This document shows positions 856 through 54,191 of a stretch of 64,000 nt of DNA, in pieces. The first letter of the stretch is position 1; each line of letters begins with the position of its first letter. The translations under genes and the position numbers were made by a program. This DNA comes from Levilactobacillus lanxiensis. GTDB taxonomy: Bacteria > Bacillota > Bacilli > Lactobacillales > Lactobacillaceae. The notes below the pieces were generated by a model. It did no database searches, was not told the DNA's origin, and saw only the letters and a program-made list of their open reading frames with translations. The DNA is taken from contig NZ_BOLN01000005.1 of NCBI RefSeq assembly GCF_016861655.1, forward strand, positions 124,001 through 188,000, read 5' to 3'.

Positions 856-1115
856 CAAGGCTAGTGAAAATAAACCTAGACTGATCAATGACTGCCGTTC
901 CCGACGGCGGGTTCAACCTGTCCTGCTGTGGGGCCCGGTTCCAGCCTGAGAAACGGGCTTCCACCTCGCCTTGAAACCTCGCTGAAGTTCACGAGTTTCC
1001 AAGGTTGGCCCATGGCCTAAGCTGAGCAGTTCACTCAGCTAACGCCATCGACACAGCTGACCAGGTTGACCCGCCTCTGGTCACTCACATTGATGGCTAA
1101 TTTTCACTAGCCTTG
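856..1115. repeat. Type A palindromic repeat, copy 1
   Basis: One of nine type A elements. The outermost arms, 856-871 and 1100-1115, are a perfect 16-bp inverted repeat with core CTAGTGAAAAT. Inside, reading the minus strand, is the conserved core GTGACCAGAGGCGGG..., with internal stems CAACCTG/CAGGTTG and GTTAGCTGAG/CTCAGCT. It fills most of the 542-bp gap between coaBC and rpoZ. The rest of the gap holds the rpoZ terminator and no recognisable gene. Confidence 0.85.
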
Positions 1116-18507: not shown

Positions 18508-18625
18508 GTGTGTGCACCTCCTTATATATTTAGACTTAGACTCGCCGAAAACAAGTGCTCCGCAAGGCGGAAAACTTAATGACTCGTCCCGAGCGGTTGC
18601 AGCTGTGGAAGTCCACAAATACAAC
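18508..18625 (-). ncRNA. Candidate ribosomal L21 leader RNA
   Basis: The rplU transcript has a leader of about 120 nt with small hairpins: TGGACTTCCA near 18607-18616 and CCGCCTTGCGG near 18570-18580. Firmicute rplU operons commonly carry an autoregulatory L21 leader in this place. The assignment rests on position and hairpins, not on a covariance search. Confidence 0.5.
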
Positions 18626-19582: not shown

Positions 19583-19690
19583 TTCACTAATTTAGTGTAA
19601 TTTTCACGTTAAGCTTATTGGCCGCTAATTATACACAACCAAGTTGACCGTAGTATGTAGCCAACACACTCCGTCACCCCACGCCAACAA

Positions 19691-19940
19691 CTAACGGTTA
19701 TGGGTGCGGGTCAAACCAGTGTCAGCCGCAGGGCTGGTGAAAATGGGCTCAGCCGTGGGAGTTACCTAAGCGGGGGGACCCCGCTTAGGTAACTGCTATC
19801 TTTGAGACGCGAACTTCGGCTCAAAGTAAGTCCGAAGACCGCCCCTCAGGCTTCGGGCGCGCGCCCACAGCGTCACGGCCCATTTTCACCAGCCCGGAGG
19901 CGAGTCAACGACCGTTTCGAACCAGCCCCAAAACCGTTAG
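19691..19940. repeat. Type B palindromic repeat, copy 1
   Basis: Outer arms CTAACGGTT (19691-19699) and AACCGTTAG (19932-19940); the right arm contains the dUTPase stop codon. Inner arms GGGCTGGTGAAAATGGGC (19731-19748) pair perfectly with 19878-19895. A perfect 16-bp hairpin AGTTACCTAAGCGGGG lies at 19760-19794, followed by CTTTGAG/CTCAAAG and CCGAAG/CTTCGG hairpins. Confidence 0.88.
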
Positions 19941-20479
19941 TAATTGTTGGCTTGGCGGTCGAGATTGACTTGACGTTTGGCCTCGTATGCGGCCTGAATC
20001 TGGTCCTGACTAAACCCGAAATCCACGAATCCCCACTTCAAGAACAGCCGCCAAGCATGGCGGAAGTCCTCTTGCCGGTGGGCAAAGTGACTGTTGAACA
20101 GCATCCGTTTCAGAATCAAGTATTGTTGGTCCAAATCCTTGGCTGGCCGACTGGTTTCGAGGGTCGTCAGGTCTTCTTCCGTCAACATGATCAGGTGCGT
20201 CCAGGTCTTCTTGGCCGCAACCAGGAAGAAGAAGTCCATGGCGTCCGTATACTCCGTCAACAGGGTCTCTTCCGGCGTTTGACCGGCATCGGCCTTGCCA
20301 CGGTGAGTCTTCCAGACCTTAAACCATTCCGACGTATTGGCCACTTCGGCAAGTTCCACGTCGAGGGCCACGTAGGCGTTTTCAATCTGTGACTTACGGG
20401 TCATTTCAATGTCTCGGTCCCGGGTGATCTGCTCATCCAGGGCGATGGATTGTTGCACTAATTTTGCTAACTCTAACAC
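19937..20479 (-). CDS. dUTP diphosphatase, dimeric all-alpha type
   Basis: Probable dUTPase of the dimeric MazG-like superfamily, hydrolysing dUTP to dUMP. 180 residues from GTG 20479 (GGAGG 9 nt upstream). Metal-binding acidic motifs appear as ALDVELAEVANTSEWFKVWK (about 37-56) and EETLLTEYTDAMDFFF (about 69-84), the E-x2-E and E-x3-D pattern of this family; helices fill the rest. It follows two genes of unknown function with only 13 bp spacing, so all three form one operon. Confidence 0.85.
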   Translation of the reverse strand: MLELAKLVQQSIALDEQITRDRDIEMTRKSQIENAYVALDVELAEVANTSEWFKVWKTHRGKADAGQTPEETLLTEYTDAMDFFFLVAAKKTWTHLIMLTEEDLTTLETSRPAKDLDQQYLILKRMLFNSHFAHRQEDFRHAWRLFLKWGFVDFGFSQDQIQAAYEAKRQVNLDRQANNY

Positions 20480-22502: not shown

Positions 22503-22670
22503 GGTGATTTGAATTTTAAAATTAAGTCTCGCTGACGACCACACCATCTTTAAGAGACAGTGCGTACGCAGAATTTTCATCAACTAACATCCCTGTCGCA
22601 GCAGGAGCAAGTTAACTGATTCCTCTCGTACAGTCACCTGACACATCAGCAACTAAGAACTGCCACTACT

Positions 22671-22950
22671 GGGTTAAACCCGTGTCAGCCGCAGGGCTGG
22701 GAAAACTGGGCCTGTCGCGGAAGTGACCAGAGGCGCGCCAAGGTGCCCAGCTGTGTCGATGGACTTGGTTGGGGTTCTCTCCCAACCTAGCCCATGGGAC
22801 AACCTTTGAGACCGCACTTCGGCTCAAAGTTGAGGTGGAAGCCCGCCCTTCGGCTGAAACCGGCCCCACAGCAGGGCACCTTGAGCGCGCCGGCGGGAAC
22901 GGACACGACCAGGCCCAGTTTTCACCAGCCCGGAGGCGAGGACTTAACCC
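22671..22950. repeat. Type A palindromic repeat, copy 3
   Basis: Outermost arms GGGTTAA (22671-22677) and TTAACCC (22944-22950), the latter 2 bp from the glnA stop. Inner arms GGGCTGG + GAAAACTGGGCCTG (22694-22714) pair with 22910-22931. Further stems: GGCGCGC/GCGCGCC, CAAGGTGCCC (22739-22748) with GGGCACCTTG (22874-22883), GGTTGGG (22767-22773) with CCCAACC (22781-22787), and CTTTGAG/CTCAAAG. The best-preserved copy. Confidence 0.9.
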
Positions 22951-26519: not shown

Positions 26520-26604
26520 GCATTCCCATTCCCTTCACGTTAATTCTATTAGTAAGGGTACCACAGAACCCCGGCGTTTCGTCCTAAATTGTTACGTTTT
26601 GACC

Positions 26605-26839
26605 ATTGGAAATGAGACAGTCTTTGCTACCGTTCCCGCCGGCGGATTCAAGGTGCCCTGCTGTGGGGAACGGTTCCAGCCTATGGTGCGGGCTTCCGCC
26701 TCGACTTTGAGCCTGAGAAACGGTCTCAAAGGTCGTCCCGTGTTCTAGGTTGGGCAAGCCCTCCCCAACCAAGAACACCGACACAGCCGGGCACCTTGAT
26801 CCGCCTCTGGTCACTCACATTGTCGGTCTCATTTCCAAT
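26605..26839. repeat. Type A palindromic repeat, copy 4
   Basis: Locus-specific perfect 14-bp arms ATTGGAAATGAGAC (26605-26618) and GTCTCATTTCCAAT (26826-26839), with weaker GTTTT similarity outside. Internal stems CAAGGTGCCC/GGGCACCTTG and GGTTGGG/CCCAACC. It lies in the 562-bp gap between the divergent phosphodiesterase and DUF3042 genes; nothing else there is assignable apart from promoter space. Confidence 0.88.
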
Positions 26840-27081
26840 AATTAAAACCTAAATCGCCTGTGCTTTTCCTGTCATCTGCACCATGTATTCTGGTAAAAAG
26901 GCAAGCAGTATACTGCCTCGTGCCACACAATTTCAACCGATAGAGCGGCAACGTGCGGTTAAGAACTACCCTAACGCGCCTCACCAATCAGAACACCATG
27001 TAAATCACTAGCAATTTGAAGGGAAAAATAGCATAATGGAAGCGGATAACTTAAAATCTTACACGATGGGAGTCGAATGCT

Positions 27082-32972: not shown

Positions 32973-33194
32973 AATATTTTGCGGGTAATTGGCCGTTCCC
33001 GGCGGCGGGCTCAAGGTGCCCTGCTATGGGGCCGGTTCCAGCCTGAGGGGCGGGCTTCCACCTCGACTTTGTGCCTGAGGTGCGGTCACAAAGGTCGTCC
33101 CGTGGGCTAGGCTGGGAAAGTACCCCAGCCTAGCCCACCGACACAGCTGGGCACCTTGGCCCGCCTCTGGTCACTCACATTTTCCTAAAATATT
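32973..33194. repeat. Type A palindromic repeat, copy 5
   Basis: Outer arms AATATTTT (32973-32980) and AAAATATT (33187-33194) are locus specific. A perfect 15-bp hairpin GTGGGCTAGGCTGGG/CCCAGCCTAGCCCAC and the CAAGGTGCCC/GGGCACCTTG stem are inside. With copy 6 it occupies the 1,243-bp divergent gap between pbp and yfhO; 33195-33470 and 33761-33990 show only short shadow ORFs and no convincing gene. Confidence 0.87.
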
Positions 33195-33470
33195 CTATCG
33201 ATGGGGATTGGCCATATTTTATTTACGTTTGTCTCTATTTTCTGCCGGACGTAATCACTCCCAAAGGATTTTGCATAGCCACATTCCCGATAACCCATCG
33301 CCCACTTGTCAAAATAAATATGTGCAACCAGGCCGATGGAATCAAAGCATTATTAAACCGAGCGATCCCGATGCAAACTCACTTGGCTAATCGCAGCACA
33401 ACATCTTTAGTCTGTCGATAACCGGTTAATACATAAGAATCAGTACGCAACTCAAGCACCGTCTATGGAC

Positions 33471-33760
33471 TAAACGTGCGGCAGCCACCGGGATGGTGAA
33501 AATGAAACGTTTGTATCAGTGACCAGAGGTGGGCCAAGACGCCCAGCTGTGTCGATGGTCTTAGTTGCGTGATTTGTTCGCAACTTAGCCCATGGGACAA
33601 CCTTTGAGACCGGTTCTCAGGCTCAAAGTTGAGGTGGAAGCCCGCTTTTTGGCTGGAACCGGCGCCACAGCAGGGCGTCTTGAGACCACCGCCGGGAACG
33701 AGCGCCACAGCGTTCCAATCCCTTTTTCACCATCCCGGAGGCGAAACCAACGACCGTTTA
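33471..33760. repeat. Type A palindromic repeat, copy 6
   Basis: Outer arms TAAACG (33471-33476) and CGTTTA (33755-33760). Inner arms CCGGGATGGTGAAAA (33488-33502) pair perfectly with 33724-33738. CAAGACGCCC (33535-33544) pairs with GGGCGTCTTG (33673-33682), and AGTTGCG (33563-33569) with CGCAACT (33579-33585): both stems are rewritten relative to copy 3 yet remain paired. Confidence 0.9.
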
Positions 33761-34003
33761 ACTCATACCCAGTATTTTAGTTGAGTTCTGAAATATCTTT
33801 AAAAATATGACAATCCGGCCGCACAGCTGGCCCAGTATAGTATGATAAGAACTGGCCAATCTTTGACCACGCGTGGTCGTGTCACCTAACCAACCCGTTA
33901 GCCTGACCGCCACGCCAGCTTCGCCCTTAGGCTGAATCCGCCGATTCACGCCGCAACACTCATAAACTTGCTTTTAAATTATTGAAAGATTGAGGTGGCT
34001 TCC

Positions 34004-36637
34004 TTGCAAGAAAAAAAACGACGTTGGTCGCTTACACAACGTCAATCCACACTTTTGGGTGCGTTCTTAACGCCCTTTTTATTAATGACGGCTTATTTTA
34101 TCTACCGGCAGATGGCCCCATTTGGCTCAAGTAGCCTATTGACGGTCGACCTAGGTCAGCAGTACATCGACTTCTTTGCCTATCTACGGCGAGCCCTACT
34201 GCACGATCCCAGCAGTATTTTCTACTCCTTTGCGAACGGCTTGGGTGGCGAAATGCTGGGGACCTGGTCGTACTACCTGCTCAGTCCGCTGAACTGGCTG
34301 TTACTGCTCTGTCCCGGCGCCACGCTCACGACCGGGGTCTTCCTCCTGACCGTGATCAAATATGGGCTGGCTGGCCTGACCTTCGGCTGGTTACTGCTCA
34401 AAACGACCAACCAATCCGGTTTTAAGCTGGTAACGTTGGCCACCGCCTACGCCTTGATGGGCTGGTCGATTGCCAACCAACTCAACATCATGTGGTTAGA
34501 CGCAGCCTACCTGTTGCCACTGATTTTCTACGGCCTGTATCTGTTGATGCACACCGGCAAGTGGCGTACCTACGTGGTCTGGTTGACCCTCATGCTGGTC
34601 GTGAACTACTACATGGCCTACATGATCTGTCTCTTCTTGATTTTGGCATTCGTTTGGTTTGCCGTTGATCAATTTACTAACTGGCGGCACTTCTGGGGTC
34701 AAACCGTAAAGTTTGCGTTGACCTCCGCCGCAAGCGGCCTGTTGGCAGCATTCGTGTTGCTGCCAACCTGGTGGTCCCTGTCGCAAAGCAAGGCCCAGTA
34801 CACGGTCACAACCTTTAAGTGGAAGTTTGAATTCTTCCCACCGAAGATGATTGCCAAGTTCTTCATGGGCGCCTTCAACTTTGATCAAATGCCGGACGGG
34901 ACCGCCAACCTCTTCATCGGTGCGCTGGCCTTACTCGGAAGCATTTTCTTTTTCGCGGACAAACGTATCAAGCTACGTAGCCGCATCACCGCCGGCATCA
35001 TCACCCTCTTCTTGGCGTTATCCCTCTGTGTTCAACCCCTCGACCTGTTGTGGCACGCGGGCCAGTTCCCCGTTTGGTACCCGTACCGCTTCTCGTTTGT
35101 CGTGAGTTTCTGGCTGATTTGGTTGGCCGCGCAAACCCTAACGGACGACTTCGAACCCGGCTGGTTGGCCATTGCCGTCGCCACACTGCTCATCGTGGCC
35201 GGCACCGCCTACGTGGCCTTGAACCTCAAGTCCTTTAAGTTCTTACAAATGAATCAAGTGCTCCTCGGCCTGTTCTTTGCCGTCTTGGCCCTAGGCCTAA
35301 CGACGCTGCCCGTCAAGCACCACTGGATCTATCCGCTGGCCTTTTTCGTCATCGGGATAACCGAGGTCTCGGCCAACGCCTTCATGTCGTTAAACAACAT
35401 TAGCTACGTCTCTCAAGGCGAATACGGCAACTACACCAACGAGCTCCAACGCTTGGTCAACCGCGTGCAGAAGAAAGATCAAGGCGTCTACCGTATCGGT
35501 AAGACCTTCCTGCGAACCAAGGGCGATGCCTTTCAAACGGGCTATGCCGGCGGCGGGGTCTTCTCATCCGTCCTGCCAAAAGCCACGCCGACCTTCTACG
35601 GCAACATTGGGAGTCCGGATGGCGACGGCTTCGTTGAATACAGCAACGGGACACTGGTCACCGATTCCCTGCTAAACATGAAGTACTACTTCCAGCAAAA
35701 ACAATTGTCCGGCGCCTTGAGTGGGACTAGCATGTTGCCGGCGTCCACCAACAAGGCCGACCTGGCGGATTACCAAGCCGTGGGTCAGGACCAATGGGCC
35801 ACGACCTACCGTAACCAATACGCTCTGCCAATAGGTTACGCCGCCAATCAACAGATTCTAACGTTGAAGAACAAAACGGCCGACCCGGCACAGTACCAGT
35901 CCAACTGGCTGGCCGCGTTGACCGGTAAAGTCACGGACCAACACCTGTACACGGCCGAAAATTTTGACCAAGTGACGTTCCAAAACATCGCCCAACAGTC
36001 GAAGATCACCGGCGCTGTGTTACAACGCAAAAACCTGTTGAAACCGGCGAAGATTACGCTGACATTCACCCCAACCACCAACGACGCGTACTACCTGACC
36101 TTTGGTTCGACGGTCAATTCGGATAACGCGACGTTCATCCTGAATGGTAAAACGCTGGATCAGTACAAGACCTACCGGAACACCATCATGGTCAGTGCCG
36201 CCGACCATGCCAAAGGTAAGAAGCAAACGTTAACGATTCAGCTGAAGAAGGGCTCGTTGTGGCTGGATAACTTCACGCTGTATCAACTGAATACGGCGAA
36301 GTTCCAACGCGCCGTCACGCAGCTGAAGACGCAACCCTGGCACCTAACGAAACACAGCAGTCGCTATTTCCGTGGCACCATCACGACTAAGACGGCCGAT
36401 CAGGTCCTGAACACCTCCGTGCCGTACTCCACCGGTTGGCACGCCACCGTTAATGGTAAGCGCGTCAAAACGTACAAGACAGTCGGCATGTTCACCGCCG
36501 TTAAGCTGCCTAAGGGCCAGAGTACCGTGACACTGTCCTACTGGCCACCGTTGTTAAATGCCGGGTTGCTGGTTAGTTTAGTGACGTTGCTGGGTCTGAC
36601 AGGCGGCTGGTACCTCACCCACCGTCGTCACGGTTAA
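34004..36637 (+). CDS. YfhO-family polytopic membrane protein
   Basis: 877 residues from TTG 34004 (GAGGTGG 5 nt upstream; GTG 33995 overlaps that site). The first 450 residues form about 12 membrane helices with the family pattern LLTVDLGQQYIDFFAYLRRALL, YSFANGLGGEMLGTWSYYLLSPLNWLL and a PVWYPYRFSF block. A large extracytoplasmic region follows (about 460-845) and a last helix (LLVSLVTLLGLTGGWYL). YfhO proteins are GT-C-like and act in glycosylation of lipoteichoic acid or other wall polymers in Bacillus and Listeria. It is monocistronic; its last Gly codon and stop form one arm of a type B repeat. Confidence 0.93.
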   Translation: MQEKKRRWSLTQRQSTLLGAFLTPFLLMTAYFIYRQMAPFGSSSLLTVDLGQQYIDFFAYLRRALLHDPSSIFYSFANGLGGEMLGTWSYYLLSPLNWLLLLCPGATLTTGVFLLTVIKYGLAGLTFGWLLLKTTNQSGFKLVTLATAYALMGWSIANQLNIMWLDAAYLLPLIFYGLYLLMHTGKWRTYVVWLTLMLVVNYYMAYMICLFLILAFVWFAVDQFTNWRHFWGQTVKFALTSAASGLLAAFVLLPTWWSLSQSKAQYTVTTFKWKFEFFPPKMIAKFFMGAFNFDQMPDGTANLFIGALALLGSIFFFADKRIKLRSRITAGIITLFLALSLCVQPLDLLWHAGQFPVWYPYRFSFVVSFWLIWLAAQTLTDDFEPGWLAIAVATLLIVAGTAYVALNLKSFKFLQMNQVLLGLFFAVLALGLTTLPVKHHWIYPLAFFVIGITEVSANAFMSLNNISYVSQGEYGNYTNELQRLVNRVQKKDQGVYRIGKTFLRTKGDAFQTGYAGGGVFSSVLPKATPTFYGNIGSPDGDGFVEYSNGTLVTDSLLNMKYYFQQKQLSGALSGTSMLPASTNKADLADYQAVGQDQWATTYRNQYALPIGYAANQQILTLKNKTADPAQYQSNWLAALTGKVTDQHLYTAENFDQVTFQNIAQQSKITGAVLQRKNLLKPAKITLTFTPTTNDAYYLTFGSTVNSDNATFILNGKTLDQYKTYRNTIMVSAADHAKGKKQTLTIQLKKGSLWLDNFTLYQLNTAKFQRAVTQLKTQPWHLTKHSSRYFRGTITTKTADQVLNTSVPYSTGWHATVNGKRVKTYKTVGMFTAVKLPKGQSTVTLSYWPPLLNAGLLVSLVTLLGLTGGWYLTHRRHG

Positions 36638-36845
36638 GCTAGTGTGTCGGCAGTGCCTCCGGACCGGTGAGAATGGGCCGTGACGCTGTGGGCGCACGTC
36701 TGAAGCCTGAGAAACGGTCTTCAGACTTACTTTGAGCCGAAAACCGCGTCTCAAAGATAGCAGTTGTCTAAGCGGTAAACCGCTAAGGCAACTCCCACGG
36801 CTGAGCCCATTTTCACCAGTCCTGCGGCTTCACACTAGCTTAACC
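36632..36845. repeat. Type B palindromic repeat, copy 2
   Basis: Perfect 15-bp outer arms GGTTAAGCTAGTGTG (36632-36646) and CACACTAGCTTAACC (36831-36845). The left arm contains the last codon and stop of yfhO. Inside are CACGGCTGAGCCCATTTTCACC-related inner arms, a hairpin GTTGTCTAAGCGGT/ACCGCTAAGGCAAC, CTTTGAG/CTCAAAG and a GTCTGAAG/CTTCAGAC hairpin. Confidence 0.9.
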
Positions 36846-40239: not shown

Positions 40240-40830
40240 CAAAGAGTGCGGAGCGAGCCGCTTAGACTCTGAGCATTAACGTCGACTAAGTGATGACCCC
40301 GGGCTTGGGTCATTGCTTAGTCGGGGTTAAGCGCAGGAGTCTGGCTCGCGGAGCACGTTTCCGAGGCCGCAAGTTTCCGGATCTAAAAGCGAAGAACCAG
40401 TCGAACGACCAACGACCTAAGTCAGTCTAAATCAATGACGACACCCGGGCCTGGGGCATTTTCGTTACGGTGTTAAGCGGAACCAGTTGCCTCGCGTAGC
40501 ACGTTTCAGAAGCCGCATGTTTCCGAATCTAAAAGCGAAGAACCAATCAAATGACCTAAGTCAGTCTAAATCAATGACGTTGTCTCAGGCTTGGGTCATT
40601 GATTAGTCGGGGTTAAGCGCAGGGACCTGGCTCGCGTAGCACGTTTCCGAGGCCGCAAGTTTCCGAATCTAAAAGCGAAGAACCTGTCAAACGACCTAAG
40701 TCAGTCTAAATCAATGACGTTGCCCTAACACAAAGCATAAAAATCTGCCTCGCATAGCTAAGCCAACACCTTCCTAAAACCATAAACTTCCAAATCAAAA
40801 AGCGAAAGCCAACCAAGCGACCTAAGTCAA
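40240..40830. repeat. Decaying tandem array of about 140-bp units
   Basis: Three clear units and a fourth degenerate one, aligned on ATCTAAAAGCGAAGAACC at 40381, 40527, 40667 and (diverged) about 40793, with periods near 146, 140 and 126 bp. Each has CACGTTTCCGAGGCCGCAAG, CGACCTAAGTCAGTCTAAA and a palindrome such as CTAAGTGATGACCC/GGGTCATTGCTTAG (unit 1) or ATCAATGAC/GTCATTGAT (unit 3). No ORF spans it. It is non-coding, unrelated to types A and B, and lies in the 1,041-bp gap 40148-41188 with the mltG promoter and a type B repeat. Confidence 0.85.
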
Positions 40831-40927
40831 TCTAACTACCTAACCATCAACTCACACATAGACTTAAATAAAATCAGACCGACACACCCCACGTCAACGT
40901 CCTCACAATCCATCCAAACCCGCAGCA

Positions 40928-41137
40928 CGTTTTTTCGGGTCAAACCAGTGTCAGCCGCAGGGCTGGTGAAAATAGGCTCAGCCGTGGGAGTTTCCTTGGT
41001 GGCTTTGCCACTTAGGAAACTGATATCTTTGAGACGTGCCCTTCGGCTCAAAGTAAGTTCGGAGACCGCCCTTTGGCTCCGGACGTTCGCCCACAGCGTC
41101 ACGGCCTATTTTCACCAGCCCGGAGGCGCAAAAAACG
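40928..41137. repeat. Type B palindromic repeat, copy 3
   Basis: Outer arms CGTTTTTT (40928-40935) and AAAAAACG (41130-41137); the right arm is the T-run of the pheT terminator. Inner arms GGCTGGTGAAAATAGGC/GCCTATTTTCACCAGCC differ from copy 1 by one compensated pair. Hairpin AGTTTCC (40989-40995) with GGAAACT (41015-41021), CTTTGAG/CTCAAAG and CGGAG/CTCCG follow. Confidence 0.9.
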
Positions 41138-41172
41138 CGCTAGCCATCCCGAAGGAAAGCTAACGCGTTTCA
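41131..41172 (-). terminator. pheT terminator
   Basis: On the minus strand AACGCGTTAGC and GGCTAGCGCGTT pair around a loop of about 13 nt, then TTTT. Its T-run overlaps the proximal arm of the type B repeat. Confidence 0.85.
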
Positions 41173-46033: not shown

Positions 46034-46279
46034 GTCAGACCTGTAAAAATGGGTGTCCGATTTACGTTCCCGGCGGTGGGCTCAAGGTAGTCTGCTGTGG
46101 GGAACGGCTCCAGCCTGTGAAGCGGGCTTCCGCCTCGCCTTTGAGCCTGAAAAGCGGTCTCAAAGGGCGTCCCGTGCTCTAAACTGAGAAAACCACTCAG
46201 TTAAGACCACCGACACAGCAGGTCATCTTGATCTGCCTCTGGTCACTCACACTGGCCATGCCATTTTTACAGGTCTGAC
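46034..46279. repeat. Type A palindromic repeat, copy 7
   Basis: The longest perfect arms in the family: GTCAGACCTGTAAAAATGG (46034-46052) and its 19-bp complement at 46261-46279, unlike the arms of any other copy. Core in the same orientation as copy 4, with CTGAG/CTCAG hairpin. Internal CAAGGT-type stem is imperfect here. Lies with copy 8 in the 930-bp gap 45900-46829; 46280-46538 shows nothing I can assign. Confidence 0.9.
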
Positions 46280-46538
46280 GATGGCGCTTGGTGTTATCAA
46301 TTAATTTAGATGTATGCTTTTTAGAATGTTTAAGTGTCTCAAAATAAGGGACTACCATTCAATTCAATGAGCATTAATCAGACACAACAATAGTGTGTAA
46401 AAAGGAATCACCATCATACGGCTGAGAAAACGGAGCCAGTCATAAAAGTGCCTCAAGACGAACCTGGGTACAGAAACGTGAATAGGCACTACAAACCGTT
46501 CGCTAGAAGATCCGACTGACACGTCCACCGACAATCAA

Positions 46539-46828
46539 GGGTTGAACGCGTGTCAGCCGCAGGGCTGGGAAAACTGGGCTGGTCGTGGGAGTGACCAGAG
46601 GCGAGCCAAGGTGACCAGCTGTGTCGATGGCCTTGGCTGGGGTATTTTCCCAGCCTAGTCCATGGGACAACCTTTGAGACCGCTTTTTGGCTCAAAGTTG
46701 AGGTGGAAGCCGCCCTTCGGCTGGAACCGACCCCACAGCAGGGCTCCTTGAGCGTGCCGCCGGGAACGGACGCGACCAGGCCCAGTTTTCACCAGCCCGG
46801 AGGCACTGACAACGCAAAAGTTCAACCC
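46539..46828. repeat. Type A palindromic repeat, copy 8
   Basis: Outer arms GGGTTGAAC (46539-46547) and GTTCAACCC (46820-46828), the right arm ending one base before the TrmH stop codon. Inner arms GGGCTGGGAAAACTGGGC pair with GCCCAGTTTTCACCAGCCC with a single bulge. Internal hairpin GGCTGGG/CCCAGCC; the CAAGG/CCTTG stem is partly eroded. Confidence 0.9.
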
Positions 46829-53910: not shown

Positions 53911-54191
53911 CAGTATTAGCTGAGCTAGTGAAAATGTGACTGAGCAGTCAGTGTTAGTGACCAGAGGCGGATCAAAGTCCCCCGCTGTGTCGGTGGGCTA
54001 GGCTGGCGTCTTTTGTCCAGCCTAGCCCACGGGTCGACCTTTGAGACCGCCTTTTGGCTCAAAGTCGAGGTGGAAGCCCGTTTCTCAGGCTGGAACCGAC
54101 CCCATAGCCGGGGACTTTGAATCCGCCGCCGGGAACGGCATGGCGCCCACAGCGTCACGGCCCATTTTCACCAGCCCGGAGGCGCAAACTG
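53911..54191. repeat. Type A palindromic repeat, copy 9 (A/B hybrid)
   Basis: The core is type A: CAAAGTCCCC (53973-53982) pairs with GGGGACTTTG (54110-54119), and GTGGGCTAGGCTGG (53993-54006) with 54017-54030 over 14 bp. The right flank, however, is type B (GCGCCCACAGCGTCACGGCC then CATTTTCACCAGC at 54163-54175). The left arm GCTAGTGAAAATG (53924-53936) pairs with it except one base. It fills much of the 573-bp gap after adhP; the remainder shows no gene. Confidence 0.85.

Follow-up and report, generated by a model that had tools for sequence, protein, structure and literature searches.

Inverted copies of gene ends beside a dispersed, folded repeat of Levilactobacillus lanxiensis

The repeat downstream of yfhO and its terminal inverted repeats

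The window, the whole 64,000-nt stretch of DNA analyzed here, is part of the 3.03-Mb genome of Levilactobacillus lanxiensis. It carries yfhO (33995..36637, plus strand; from the list of open reading frames, Pfam PF09586 YfhO, E = 1.2e-276), the product of which is 98% identical to its counterparts in Levilactobacillus mulengensis and L. wangkuiensis. The segment 36632-36845 at the end of this gene represents a single copy of a repeat that is dispersed over the genome, with at least 41 matches (40 of 271 candidates were scored). With up to three mismatches allowed, the 19-base end motif of the repeat was found 174 times, compared to 3 times for the reversed control.

The repeat, which we refer to as type A, has a core of about 175 nt that is old, high-copy, non-coding and strongly folded, and that is usually found downstream of genes, with one orientation. 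At yfhO the multibranched core occupies 36655..36828 on the plus strand, as supported by the genome matches and the consensus fold. In the fold derived from an alignment of 40 copies, a long outer stem encloses three hairpins. The fold comprises 60 consensus pairs, 14 of which changed on both sides in at least one copy, and the core is thus conserved as a structure. Matches to the core were found in 13 of 151 genomes of the family, the own genome included, with mostly short pieces outside the genus, and none were found in plasmid or phage collections. None of 4227 Rfam models matched the repeat when the window and the yfhO copy were searched, and a described Rfam RNA family was therefore rejected as its identity.

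Further type-A elements in the window, all on the minus strand, lie after the dUTPase gene (19725..19901; genome match C5:143709-143901), close after the glnA stop (22665..22938; GlnA, TIGR00653), where a type-B core is nested in the element, and directly after the terminator T-run of pheT (40924..41141; TIGR00472), with a mirrored A-run on the far side. Type-B elements, given without strand, are located at 856..1115, 26592..26852 and 46034..46279. The flanks of the first, compared with those in relatives, are about 470 bp apart here and 2-16 bp apart in L. cerevisiae, L. angrenensis, L. suantsaiihabitans and L. brevis CD0817. Nested or adjacent repeats were observed at 22665-22938, 33028-33736, 46100-46805 and 53939-54184, with type-B cores between the stem arms of type-A elements, and such composites reach about 700 nt.

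The original prediction held that the outer arm of the yfhO copy reproduces the stop codon of the host gene in inverted form. The arms GGTTAAGCTAGTGTG (36632-36646) and CACACTAGCTTAACC (36831-36845), both on the plus strand, are indeed perfectly complementary over 15 bp, and the TAA stop of yfhO (36635-36637) lies inside the first. Arm complementarity and comparison across copies identify these arms as the left and right terminal inverted repeat (TIR) of the type-A element. When the yfhO copy was compared to the 39 others of the 40-copy set, including copies after unrelated genes, at least 11 of 15 positions of the far arm were matched at the homologous place in 16/39 copies, and of the near arm in 10/39, compared to 0/39 at control places (further out, for the far arm). 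The yfhO orthologs of L. cerevisiae, L. angrenensis, L. brevis CD0817 and L. suantsaiihabitans end at the same point without an element. Because the far arm is the element's own TIR and recurs after unrelated genes, we reject it as a copy of the yfhO stop.

The same applies, by eye, to the short arms reported at trmH, glnA and matrixin 2, which are forms of the TIR (about CGGGTTAAAC/GTTTAACCCG). Past the TIR, a few additional matching bases were seen at trmH and glnA; those at glnA were not significant (87 of 300 shuffles).

Inverted flanks and gene stops across the copies

Although the headline example fails, the general observation stands. In a set of 74 copies, made up of the 40 and of 34 more from two further segments (weak and duplicate matches dropped), we aligned the near flank with the reverse-complemented far flank outside the TIR and used cross-locus pairings as a control. 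The true pairs reached a mean score of 9.19, compared to 6.44 for cross-locus pairs (SD 1.42, z = 16.6), and scores of at least 15 occurred in 11/74 true pairs versus 0/5402 cross pairs. A preceding test with 40 copies pointed the same way (scores of at least 20 in 10/40 true pairs versus 2/1560 cross pairs). The alignment of direct repeats over the same 74 copies gave no signal (6.34 versus 6.22 for cross pairs). Inverted copies of the near flank are therefore present on the far side of many copies, in line with the original observation, and the flanks are inverted rather than direct. A target-site duplication was rejected on this basis, with the reservation that a duplication of a few base pairs would be compatible with the data.

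MITEs such as ERIC or RUP are non-autonomous elements with terminal inverted repeats. The type-A element shares these features, but differs in its locus-specific inverted flanks and in the lack of a detectable direct repeat among the 74 copies.

The mirror is confined to the vicinity of the core. In 24-nt blocks, z was 12.1 for blocks starting 24 nt from the core, 7.1 at 36 nt, 6.0 at 42 nt, 2.0 at 48 nt and -0.3 at 60 nt, so that the signal fades about 50-60 nt from the core and is gone in blocks starting at 54 nt or more. The alignments show that the mirrored stretch varies in length among copies and that the far arms hold small deletions. An anchored extension alignment, with a mean of 8.2 for true pairs and 0.9 for cross pairs, applied too strict a scoring close to the core and is illustrative only.

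Mirrored flanks were also detected beyond the type-A set. The 52 type-B copies showed an inverted excess with z up to 11.4. This set is unfiltered: it contains at least four type-A cores, and numerous members lie inside type-A stems, which raises the cross-pair scores too. In the window, type-B elements with locus-specific arms outside the TIR include those at 26592/26826 (27 nt, 85%) and 46034/46261 (19 nt, 100%). In L. cerevisiae, 20 copies gave an inverted excess with z up to 8.8, at 10 nt, with the TIR not set apart, and 20 copies of L. angrenensis showed no locus-specific mirror up to 160 nt from the matched core.

The copies are oriented relative to genes. A gene stop, placed by an ORF rule of at least 90 codons, lies to the left of the core, at a distance of 9-75 nt, in 29/40 copies and to its right in 0/40; the anchored extension alignment had right-side ORF stops in 3/40 copies, all inside the element. 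A mirror that covers the stop together with 6 or more coding nucleotides was found in 15 of the 29 stop-bearing copies, compared to 27/812 cross pairs (score of at least 12), and in 12 copies versus 2 cross pairs at a score of at least 16. Both the 74-copy test and the stop test thus reveal reverse-complement copies of adjacent sequence above chance, as template switching would leave. A clear mirror is lacking in roughly half of the copies that have a stop close by, and inspection by eye showed a gene start or a terminator, instead of a stop, on the near flank of some copies.

The dUTPase locus provides an individual case. Its gene-side arm (19911..19946, minus strand) holds the stop and last codons of the gene (PF08761, dUTPase_2), and its far arm (19685..19720, minus strand) mirrors them over 36 nt with 72% complementarity (0 of 300 shuffles). 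Unlike the yfhO arms, the dUTPase and pheT arms lie outside the TIR, and the claim that the dUTPase arms include the stop is borne out. By the same shuffle test, no mirror was present at this locus in L. cerevisiae (175 of 300), L. brevis (68 of 300) or L. angrenensis (279 of 300), and the far arm scored 16 against its own gene end versus 11, 8 and 7 against those of the three relatives. L. cerevisiae has a terminator and no element here, while L. angrenensis, L. suantsaiihabitans and L. brevis have other elements. The proposed check on element-free relatives gave a clean answer at one locus: the element-free L. cerevisiae possesses the gene-side arm only, and therefore the mirror at the dUTPase gene arose with or after the insertion. 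For pheT, the mirrored T-run is real in that the arms 40924-40935/41130-41141 match over 12 nt (92%), but it is statistically weak when taken alone (48 of 300 shuffles).

These loci bear on one of the two explanations originally offered, namely that a hairpin already present at the site, e.g., a terminator, took up the element in its loop. Such an origin would suit the type-B cores located between two stem arms of type-A elements, as well as the pheT copy and locus L029, which by eye sit at terminator T-runs. However, the mirrors enter coding sequence at 15 of the 29 stops and the dUTPase mirror is absent from the relatives. Likewise, glnA is followed in L. cerevisiae by its stop and then a terminator, whereas in L. 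lanxiensis the stop is followed by the element and, by eye, a terminator-like hairpin with a T-run comes about 170 nt past the far end of the element. Loop insertion fits poorly, and we consider it extremely unlikely.

Age and evolution of the arms

At one locus shared with L. cerevisiae (L042/L226), the far arms of L. lanxiensis, L. mulengensis and L. cerevisiae could be compared in equal windows. Against the L. cerevisiae gene end they scored 23, 24 and 22, respectively, and against the own gene end 21, 21 and 17; these small margins come from a single locus. The own far arm reads GACCAGTT as in the L. cerevisiae gene, whereas the own gene reads GACGCATTT. Since the L. cerevisiae gene end is the best match for the far arm in each of the three species, these arms resemble fossils of the ancestral gene end and keep what is apparently the older sequence.

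Comparison of 47 ortholog pairs (43 own loci; L. lanxiensis versus L. wangkuiensis or L. mulengensis) revealed no co-evolution of the arms at the low power of this test. The fit of the far arm to the gene end of its own species minus the fit to that of the other averaged +0.40 (17 positive, 19 zero, 11 negative; one-sided P = 0.16). An arm score of at least 12 was reached in both species by 18/47 pairs, TIR included. With the mirror common to L. mulengensis or L. wangkuiensis at many loci, it therefore predates that split, and no correction after it was detected. At TIR sites where the near arms differ between species, the far arm agreed with its own species 15 times, with the other 8 times and with neither 9 times; outside the TIR the corresponding counts were 4, 3 and 3, on very few sites. 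At yfhO a matched change was seen, with AAGC/GCTT here and AAAC/GTTT in L. wangkuiensis. Judged from these comparisons, the mirror appears to be old and mostly decaying, and some later correction within the TIR is possible.

We weighed these data against a later and repeated origin of the mirror, in which a resident hairpin is extended outwards by quasipalindrome template switching during replication. This mechanism is known in E. coli (PMC7202029) and has been proposed as a builder of RNA stems (PMC8794818). The varying length of the mirrored stretches would follow from it, and the 15 versus 8 TIR sites favor same-species matching as it would predict. Against it, the arms of the ortholog pairs are not clearly better matched within their own species, the few outer sites are nearly balanced, and the far arms at the shared locus fit the L. 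cerevisiae gene best in all three species. We regard such a later origin as rather unlikely.

Selection for base pairing would be another route, with the far flank evolving to pair with the gene end and form a structure at the stop codon. The core structure itself is conserved, and a role for structures just after stops has been reported (PMC7518266). The absence of detectable co-evolution in the 47 pairs (at low power), the better fit of the own far arm at the shared locus to the L. cerevisiae gene than to its own, and the small deletions in far arms speak against pairing selection, and we hold it to be very unlikely.

Clean empty sites were sought among 52 length differences between the three close species. 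Most of the 14 that were aligned look like partial deletions or module changes, and none of these 14 is an insertion with a fresh, perfect mirror. One whole element is present in L. wangkuiensis (contig 7, about 26.9 kb; L134:7800-8100) and wholly absent here. Its inverted arms are weak (14 of 500 shuffles) and a direct repeat is not significant (303 of 500); the difference may reflect a gain in L. wangkuiensis or a loss here.

Copying of gene ends and candidate mobilizers

A search of the genome for a mobilizer (Y1 transposase, RAYT or reverse transcriptase) identified none for the repeat. There are two Y1_Tnp matches, one of which was scored and reached 131.8 bits with the IS200/IS605 model (cut-off 55) and 37.6 with the RAYT model (cut-off 80). 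RAYT was rejected as the mobilizer on account of this score and of the IS605-like appearance of the Y1 genes. These are two very similar genes (L186 and L187, on C4 and C2), each, by eye, divergent from a TnpB-like ORF. A reverse-transcriptase gene lies on C4 at about 75.5-77.8 kb (L188:39-2316), beside a 99-nt repeat pair that is 92% identical; of the 8 positions at which the pair differs, 7 have an adenine in the second copy. The arrangement looks like a diversity-generating retroelement, and a retroelement was rejected as the mobilizer for this reason.

This one reverse-transcriptase gene is relevant to a transcript-linked origin, in which a transcript that ends within the element would fold back and have its 3' end lengthened along the gene end, after which a reverse transcriptase and recombination would bring the product back into DNA. 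Such a route would account for the gene-relative orientation (29/40 versus 0/40) and for elements directly after stops or a terminator T-run. Its weaknesses are the resemblance of the gene to a diversity-generating retroelement, the failure to find a dedicated enzyme, and the copies that, by eye, have a gene start at the near flank, since a mechanism acting on 3' ends leaves these unaccounted for. We consider the transcript route distinctly unlikely.

The best reading, to which we give an even chance, is fold-back copying of the gene end by template switching at or soon after the arrival of the element; of the two explanations originally offered, this hairpin-primed copying fits best. The element would be copied into a gene end, and the growing DNA strand, having completed the element, would fold back through its right TIR, which is complementary to the left TIR or the stop-codon region. 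The folded strand would then copy a stretch of the gene end, tens of nucleotides long, before rejoining its template. No staggered cut is required, which is consistent with the absence of direct repeats. Polymerases that stall at quasipalindromes are able to use the nascent strand as template in E. coli (PMC7202029), and template switching can create RNA stems and hairpins (PMC8794818). Fold-back copying does face difficulties: replication errors alone do not predict that stops face the element on one side only, a clear mirror is lacking in about half of the stop-bearing copies, the L. angrenensis copies show no excess, and glnA and pheT taken alone are weak. The matched change at yfhO and the excess of own-species matches at TIR sites leave room for some later correction.

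In quasipalindrome template switching (PMC7202029, PMC8794818), a nascent strand copying itself likewise leaves a reverse-complement stretch, but single small events are described there, compared to tens of loci in one genome here. Additionally, each mirror in L. lanxiensis is located at the distal flank of a folded, dispersed element and has a gene end as its source. REP, REPIN and BIME sequences with their RAYT, as introduced in PMC2817692 and PMC3116915, are likewise high-copy, intergenic, palindromic and non-coding. They differ from the present repeat in that the latter has a multibranched core of about 175 nt, and that the scored Y1 protein falls below the RAYT cut-off. Besides REP sites, attC sites are targets of guided insertion by IS1111/IS110 elements. 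The guided insertion of IS1111/IS110 into REP sites (PMC11187229, PMC11208160) is similar in its association with palindromes and its non-coding region; here, in contrast, no ORF-bearing element was seen, and the palindrome was seemingly made with the insertion rather than targeted by it.

We tentatively extend fold-back copying to a broader, possible but less probable scheme. Template-switch copying, with no transposase involved, would be the way in which the repeats spread, and every arrival would be stamped with an inverted gene end; the far arms would be fossils of ancestral gene ends throughout the genome, and type-B cores would enter type-A stems by the same switching. With fold-back copying of gene ends as such, the genome would hold a natural and repeated record of this process in bacteria at tens of loci, in which the copied length and the source side can be read from the sequence and the event dated from the copied gene end. 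"Palindromes" at bacterial repeats could then result from insertion itself rather than serve as regulatory structures. In a literature search by title or opening of the abstract, with most subscription papers outside its coverage, no description of mirrored gene ends flanking a bacterial repeat was found.

Two further features were observed in the window. Three direct repeats of 109 nt, spaced by 140-146 nt and 76-93% identical to the first, lie at 40302-40696, and a Ribosomal protein L21 leader (Rfam RF00559) is located at 18528-18608 on the minus strand.
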